Source: Gemmatimonadaceae bacterium (GTDB lineage: Bacteria > Gemmatimonadota > Gemmatimonadetes > Gemmatimonadales > Gemmatimonadaceae). Taken from it: 41,529 nt of DNA. Shown piece by piece: positions 23,264-25,206 of the stretch. The notes below the pieces were generated by a model. It was not told where the DNA came from. It saw nothing but the letters and a program-made list of their open reading frames with translations, and did no database searches. The stretch covers positions 1 to 41,529 of the forward strand of contig JAJAYP010000268.1 in assembly GCA_026786185.1 (NCBI GenBank), read 5' to 3'. The translations under genes were made by a program, and so were the position numbers. Positions within the stretch are counted from its first letter, which is position 1, and the number at the start of each line of letters is the position of its first letter.

Positions 23264-24013
23264 ATGGCCGGCCACAGTAAATGGAAGAACATCAAGCACT
23301 ACAAGGCGGCGACCGACGCCAAGCGTGGTGTGCTCTTCACGAAGTTGATTCGAGAGATCATGATGGCCGCCAAGCTCGGGGGCGGCGATCCATCGGCGAA
23401 CGCACGACTGCGCCTGGCGATCGACGCAGGCCGCTCGAAGTCGCTCCCCAAGGACAACATCGCGCGGGCGATCAAGAAAGGCACGGGGGACCTGGCGGGC
23501 GAGGCGATCCAGGAAGTGACGTACGAGGGATATGGGCCGGGCGGCGTGGCGCTGATCATCGACGCGATGACCGACAACCCGACCCGGACGGTGGCCGATG
23601 TGCGGCACAAGATGTCGCGCGCCGGCGGAAACCTGGGAACGCCGAATTCCGTGGCCTTCATGTTCGAGAAGAAGGGACAGCTGACCATCGACGTGGCCGT
23701 CCATGGCGACGAGGACGCCACGCTCGAGGCGGCGCTCGACGCCGGCGCCGAGGATTTCCGGCGAGAGGACGACGTGTACGTCGTGACGACCGACCCGGCA
23801 TCGTTTCACGCGGTGAAGTCGGCACTCGAGGCGAAGGGCATCGTGCCGACCGACGCGGAGCTTGCGATGGTGCCGAAGACCACGGTGCCGGTGAGTGGCC
23901 GCGAGAATGTCGAGGCGCTGTTCAAGCTCATCGACGCGCTCGAGGAGCTGGACGATGTGCAGAAGGTGTGGGCCAATTTCGACATCGACGACGCCGAACT
24001 GGCGGACCTCTAG
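23264..24013 (+). CDS. yebC: YebC/PmpR-family transcriptional regulator/translation factor
   Basis: MAGHSKWKNIKHYKAATDAKRGVLFTKLIREI...GDPSANARLRLAIDAGRSKSLPKDNIARAIKKGTG; start trimmed from 23057. Confidence 0.96.
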   Translation: MAGHSKWKNIKHYKAATDAKRGVLFTKLIREIMMAAKLGGGDPSANARLRLAIDAGRSKSLPKDNIARAIKKGTGDLAGEAIQEVTYEGYGPGGVALIIDAMTDNPTRTVADVRHKMSRAGGNLGTPNSVAFMFEKKGQLTIDVAVHGDEDATLEAALDAGAEDFRREDDVYVVTTDPASFHAVKSALEAKGIVPTDAELAMVPKTTVPVSGRENVEALFKLIDALEELDDVQKVWANFDIDDAELADL

Positions 24014-24020
24014 ACCTCTA
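24005..24020. repeat. Perfect 8-bp tandem duplication (gacctcta x2) spanning the yebC stop codon
   Basis: 24005-24012 and 24013-24020 are identical (gacctcta). Confidence 0.95.
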
Positions 24021-24034
24021 TCCAGGCGGCGCAC

Positions 24035-24604
24035 CTGCTCGTACTCGGCATCGATCCGGGCACGGCGAACACGGGCTATGGCGTCGTCCGTGGCGGCGGC
24101 GCCAGCACGCCCGTCCTCGTGGAGTGCGGCGTCATCCGCACGCGCGCCCGCGATCCCCTGCCGACACGTCTCCTCGAGATCCATGAAGGCATCATCGAAC
24201 TCATCGCGCGTCACGGACCGGACGCGCTCTCGGTGGAAGACGTGTTCTACGCGCGCAACGTGCGAACGACGGTGGTGCTGGGGCATGCACGCGGGGTCAT
24301 CCTGCTGGCGGCGGCCCAGCACGGACTCGTCGTGAACGAATACGCGCCCGCGGAGATCAAGAAGGCGGTGGTGGGCTCGGGTGGCGCGACGAAGGAGCAG
24401 GTACAATTCATGATCACGAAGCTGCTGCGACTGAAGAGTGCGCCGACGCCGTCCGACGCGGCCGACGGTGTGGCGGCTGCACTGGCGTGCCTGATGAGCG
24501 CGACGCTGCCGCGCATCGATGCGGGTGGCCGCGTGCGCGAGCCCTCGCGTCCAGCCAGTACCGCGTCTCCGTTCTCCGTTCCACCGAGCACCTTCCGCAC
24601 ATGA
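24035..24604 (+). CDS. ruvC: Crossover junction endodeoxyribonuclease RuvC, probable CTG start
   Basis: From CTG 24035: (M)LVLGIDPGTANTGYGVVRGG...LVECGVIRTR...LSVEDVFYARNVRTTVVLGHARGVILLAAAQHGL...YAPAEIKKAVVGSGGATKEQVQFMI...PSDAADGVAAALACLM. The ORF track only starts at internal ATG 24119. AGGCGG at 24024-24029 lies 5 nt upstream of CTG. Confidence 0.9.
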   Translation: MLVLGIDPGTANTGYGVVRGGGASTPVLVECGVIRTRARDPLPTRLLEIHEGIIELIARHGPDALSVEDVFYARNVRTTVVLGHARGVILLAAAQHGLVVNEYAPAEIKKAVVGSGGATKEQVQFMITKLLRLKSAPTPSDAADGVAAALACLMSATLPRIDAGGRVREPSRPASTASPFSVPPSTFRT

Positions 24605-25206
24605 TCGTCCAGGTCGCCGGCCAGTTGCTGACGAAGGAGCTCGACCGCGTCGAGATCCTCACCGACGGCGGAGTGGCCTACGAGCTGGCCTGTCCGCTCA
24701 ACGTGTACGAGGCGCTCCCGAAAACGGGGGAGCGCTGCATGCTGCACACGTACCTGGTCGTGAAGGAAGACGGCTGGCAACTGTTCGGATTCGTCACGGT
24801 GTACGAGCGGCGCGTTTTCCAGAAAGTGCTGGGCGCGAAAGGAGTGGGGCCGGCCCTGGCGCTGGGACTGTTGTCGTCGCTCACGGCGGACCGACTCGTG
24901 CGCGCCATTCGCGAGAAGGACGTGGCGACGCTGCAATCCGTACCGCGCGTGGGACGCAAGAAGGCGGAGCAGCTGATCCTCGACCTCGCCGACAAGCTGG
25001 ACCAGTTGCAGGCGTCCGGCACCGCGGCGGGCGTCGGCCGACCCGGTGCGCCCGGAACCGACGACGCGATCCGGGCGCTCGTCTCGCTCGGCTATTCCAC
25101 CGTCGATGCCGAGAAGGCGGTGCGCGGCGCGATCGACGGCGGCGCGAAGGGAATGTCGGCGCCGGAGCTGATTCGCTCTGCACTCGCGCGAATTGCAGGG
25201 CGGTGA
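24601..25206 (+). CDS. ruvA: Holliday junction branch migration protein RuvA
   Basis: MIVQVAGQLLTKELDRVEILTDGGVAYELACPLNVYEALPKTGERCMLHTYLVVKEDGWQLFGF; helix-hairpin-helix GAKGVGPALALGLLS and VPRVGRKKAEQLILDL. ATGA overlap with ruvC stop. Confidence 0.95.
   Translation: MIVQVAGQLLTKELDRVEILTDGGVAYELACPLNVYEALPKTGERCMLHTYLVVKEDGWQLFGFVTVYERRVFQKVLGAKGVGPALALGLLSSLTADRLVRAIREKDVATLQSVPRVGRKKAEQLILDLADKLDQLQASGTAAGVGRPGAPGTDDAIRALVSLGYSTVDAEKAVRGAIDGGAKGMSAPELIRSALARIAGR

Follow-up and report, generated by a model that had tools for sequence, protein, structure and literature searches.

Judged from the alignment of its orthologues, the unusual feature of the ruvC gene in an uncultured, soil-type Gemmatimonadaceae bacterium is that a canonical start codon is missing at the very column where those orthologues carry one. 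This column is instead occupied by a CTG, and ruvC probably (with a probability of roughly 0.7) initiates at this codon, which would have replaced an ancestral GTG at the same position. The gene is located on a stretch of 41,529 nucleotides (hereafter the window) that derives from contig C268 of a draft MAG (labelled G000; 3.5 Mb in 327 contigs, 92% complete). Profile matches placed the genes in the order yebC-ruvC-ruvA, as expected for a RuvC locus, with 21 nt separating the yebC stop codon from the ruvC CTG and with ruvA following next (Table 1).

Table 1. Coordinates of the features at the yebC-ruvC-ruvA locus, numbered from the first nucleotide of the window.
Feature	Position	Strand	Basis or remark
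yebC (YebC/PmpR family)	23264..24013	+	NCBIfam NF001030, E 3.4e-100, full length; stop TAG at 24011-24013
AGGCGG, Shine-Dalgarno-like	24024..24029	+	Read in the sequence; 5 nt 5′ of the CTG
CTG, putative ruvC start codon	24035..24037	+	Same column as the orthologue GTG/ATG
ruvC, Holliday junction resolvase	24035..24604	+	189 codons plus TGA; PF02075 and solved-structure matches
GAT, Asp of GIDPG (E. coli RuvC D7)	24053..24055	+	phmmer alignment to 1hjr
GTG, first canonical in-frame codon of ruvC	24119..24121	+	Probable automatic-annotation start; too far downstream
ruvA	24601..25206	+	TIGR00084, E 2.9e-50; ATG overlaps the ruvC stop (ATGA)

Direct reading of the window bore out the claim of a first-pass annotation that no standard start is present between the yebC TAG and the GIDPG motif of RuvC. 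Immediately after the TAG, the ruvC frame reads ACC TCT ATC CAG GCG GCG CAC CTG CTC GTA CTC GGC ATC GAT, and it remains devoid of ATG, GTG and TTG codons until the GTG at 24,119, a codon that the same annotation had mistaken for an ATG. Its further observations that AGGCGG lies 5 nt before the CTG, and that only a TAG separates yebC and ruvC within a common frame, were likewise found in the sequence. A run of eight start-free codons is by itself not rare, however, as its chance estimated from the base composition of the region (67% G+C) is ca. 0.73.

As had also been proposed, the N-terminus of RuvC is encoded upstream of 24,119: the alignment with the Pfam RuvC model begins at nucleotide 24,041 with the first model position (E-value of 2.8e-48). 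The full RuvC protein covers positions 1–146 of PF02075 (E-value of 2.1e-48) and matches the solved structures 6lw3, 1hjr and 4ep4 from query residue 2 onwards (via phmmer), with its acidic GID, SVE and DAAD motifs aligning with 1hjr and its RuvC domain being complete. In contrast, a protein begun at 24,119 enters PF02075 only at model position 27 and drops below one NCBIfam cut-off. Such a start would cost 28 codons, including the one for the Asp of GIDPG, a residue with an established role in catalysis.

The placement of the start at the CTG position in the first-pass annotation agreed with the orthologues, as all eight same-genus relatives holding ruvC carry either GTG (seven) or ATG (one) at exactly this column. 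More broadly, GTG, ATG or TTG was present at the column in 71 out of 89 distinct orthologues (from Gemmatimonadota, Thermoleophilia and others), and the window was the only one among these 89 without a canonical start, the other exceptions having one elsewhere before the motif. A pattern search further revealed CTG at the start column in four of the 179 family genomes, i.e., G000, G012 and G128 (sister species from one other genus), and G168 (from yet another genus). The G012 locus had been left out of the 89 orthologues by a script filter and was read separately. Neither G012 nor G128 contains a canonical start anywhere from the preceding in-frame stop to GIDPG, while the sole canonical candidate in G168 is an ATG located 26 codons upstream, inside yebC and out of the yebC frame. 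The non-canonical codon is common to one pair of related species and recurs in a third genus, as opposed to the GTG or ATG of the eight relatives in the genus of G000. For this comparison, upstream stretches were listed for ca. 164 family genomes, 75 of which (suspicious ones included) were parsed, and the start codon was read at fetched loci only, with elsewhere only its first base. CTG was found at the column in four of the five genomes without a near canonical start versus none of the ca. 38 in which such a start lies upstream (4e-5 in a Fisher test, with relatedness ignored). Since the CTG sits on the start column of the orthologues and recurs in other genera, initiation at this codon appears to be the best reading of the locus.

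In the RuvC tree, G000 was positioned beside G003 (which has GTG) and G168 among relatives with GTG or ATG, while G012 and G128 were joined with a support of 100/99. Because the tree scatters G000, G168 and the G012/G128 pair, the CTG start of ruvC probably arose separately about three times. Over the 20 codons that follow the CTG, G012 and G128 showed 12 synonymous and three non-synonymous differences, and a comparison of 23 codons between G000 and G003 yielded seven synonymous differences and one non-synonymous difference. This mostly synonymous change in both pairs suggests that the N-terminal segment is being kept as protein, and among the present data the purifying selection within the CTG-bearing pair argues most strongly for a translation start at the CTG or upstream of it. 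Since its nearest relative G003 has GTG, the change in G000 is recent, and the G000 branch by itself provides a weak test of selection.

The CTG could also stem from a sequencing or assembly error in the G000 MAG, in which case the true codon would be GTG and the gene an ordinary one. Although this would fit with a draft assembly in 327 contigs and with nearest relatives that all have GTG or ATG at the column, the same codon is found at the same column in three other assemblies from two other genera, and the ruvC frame is otherwise intact. Moreover, a nearby CGC-to-CAC change just before the codon (with respect to relatives such as G005) resembles ordinary divergence. Given the recurrence of CTG in other genera, such an error is unlikely, and less probable than had been feared in the first-pass annotation.

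It is more unlikely still that ruvC lost its start in G000 and now yields little or no protein, with its decay just beginning. While E. coli initiates very weakly at CUG (PMC11497404), and the change is limited to one species within its genus, the ORF is intact with both its catalytic residues and its ruvA overlap retained, and G012 and G128 mainly display synonymous change in the N-terminal segment even though both have CTG. Use of a different non-canonical start, for instance the ATC at 24,020 (which would add five residues), has a precedent in the ATC/ATT starts of infC (PMC5472188), but is very unlikely here as this ATC is not preceded by a Shine-Dalgarno-like sequence and, as opposed to the CTG column, is not common to G012, G128 and G168.

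Finally, readthrough of the yebC TAG into a YebC-RuvC fusion that supplies RuvC, which had initially been offered next to CTG initiation, is extremely improbable: although a lone TAG is all that divides the common frame of yebC and ruvC, and although the same frame relation exists in G012 and G128, the two frames differ in the sister G003 as well as in G168 and G026, two in-frame TGA codons separate both genes in G128, and no tRNA with a CTA anticodon was present among the tRNAs read (30 of the 39 candidate loci). A common yebC/ruvC frame is in fact expected by ascertainment, because an in-frame stop hides upstream starts. As neither the frame relation nor the stop is conserved among the relatives and the spacing varies as well, readthrough was rejected as a general route, so that from the initial interpretation only CTG initiation was retained.

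According to the favored CTG initiation, the ordinary ribosome would start at the CUG with fMet-tRNA, likely aided by the AGGCGG upstream and probably also by ribosomes that have just finished yebC and so arrive at the ruvC start. The product would be a normal RuvC (M-L-V-L-G-I-D-P-G...) with Met as first residue, and we infer both this coupling to yebC and an expression level lower than that from GTG. CUG has been reported to make up 0.024% of bacterial start codons and to support ca. 0.86% of the AUG expression level in E. coli, versus 58% for GUG (PMC11497404). Since CUG is so weak in E. coli, initiation at the ruvC CUG could be very poor.

The missing start appeared to be specific to ruvC in G000. 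Where close relatives of a window gene agree on a canonical start column, the window also has a canonical codon there, with ruvC as the exception, and a stricter automatic survey yielded ruvC as the sole convincing missing start in G000. The same survey of G012 and G003 produced no convincing case. A genome-wide spread of CTG starts was therefore rejected, and an ATC hit that the survey returned in another G000 gene was internal, with canonical codons nearby. The survey also returned a possible GTC in G034 (L219, G034:C12:20000-20552), close to the end of the retrieved sequence, at a column where seven of nine relatives are canonical.

As to the surroundings of the codon, the duplex between AGGCGG and the anti-Shine-Dalgarno sequence (–5.8 kcal/mol) equals that of G005 and G008, which are same-genus users of GTG, and RNA structure at the ruvC start was weaker than in shuffled sequences (z of 1.2). 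The G000 initiator tRNA displays the C1-A72 mismatch and three G-C pairs, and a relaxed initiator tRNA was rejected as a cause since this tRNA is normal. Initiation factor gene infC (IF3, PF00707) was not found in a whole-assembly search of G000, most likely because of an assembly gap. IF3 is present in G012, G128, G168, G026 and most same-genus relatives, and its loss was rejected as a common cause because the other CTG-start genomes have it.

Other arrangements of the ruvC start were encountered as well. In G026 (L155, G026:C21:35442-36300), from another genus of the family, ruvC is without a canonical start over 41 codons and has CAC at the column. Its near-cognate codons are a CTG 10 codons before GVDPG, which comes just past the yebC TGA and has GAGGGGG upstream, or an ACG right after the column. 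Three further genera of this family (g22, g24 and g5) have the ruvC start shifted upstream, to a GTG that coincides with the yebC stop or immediately precedes it (frequently as GTGA), while various codons now occupy the former start column, which points to a frequent turnover of the ruvC start in Gemmatimonadaceae. A conserved CTG start outside the family was considered and rejected: in seven genomes of genus g79 (L208–L214), which belongs to a different family of the class, the CTG at the column is accompanied by a GTG that is conserved 11 codons ahead of GVDPG, and in G292 by an ATG 8 codons ahead of GIDPG, so that with a canonical upstream start present the CTG there is probably an internal Leu codon. 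Additionally, CAMCUD010000019.1 (L084), titled as a Bifidobacterium breve MAG, encodes a RuvC that is 49% identical to the Gemmatimonadaceae one and is possibly mislabelled.

Canonical ruvC genes of Gemmatimonadaceae share the yebC-ruvC-ruvA order, the start column and the protein with G000, but differ by having GTG, ATG or occasionally TTG at the column, or an upstream GTG that overlaps the yebC stop. Starts outside ATG, GTG and TTG that are wrongly placed by annotation are already known from infC (encoding IF3), which starts at ATT/ATC (AUU/AUC), and from Streptomyces sigR, with a conserved and IF3-repressed GTC (GUC) start that is present in 32 of 34 Streptomyces (PMC5472188). These genes use other codons, and their IF3-dependent regulation was shown by experiment. 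Different species have kept the sigR codon, while the CTG of ruvC occurs sporadically and is conserved in a single pair of species. The proposed ruvC start also resembles E. coli CUG complexes in which the CAU anticodon of fMet-tRNA sits on CUG with a first-position mismatch, although these were laboratory complexes with a variant initiator tRNA (PMC11497404), as opposed to the normal three G-C pairs in G000. A literature search for a CTG start of ruvC returned nothing relevant, and the ruvC example appears to be new to us.

For annotation, gene callers restricted to ATG, GTG and TTG would cut off the catalytic Asp, causing RuvC to be mis-scored as truncated or defective. The recurrence at one gene in one family moreover lifts the ruvC CTG somewhat above the ordinary. 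It is conceivable, though rather doubtful, that Gemmatimonadaceae ruvC repeatedly gains CUG because a low and IF3-sensitive level of RuvC is favored, with the start codon acting as a throttle on Holliday junction resolution that arose about three times and was kept in one genus. If true, this throttle would be invisible to gene callers. About three origins at one gene among 179 family genomes suggest either that very little initiation is enough for ruvC, or that these bacteria use CUG more efficiently than E. coli does.
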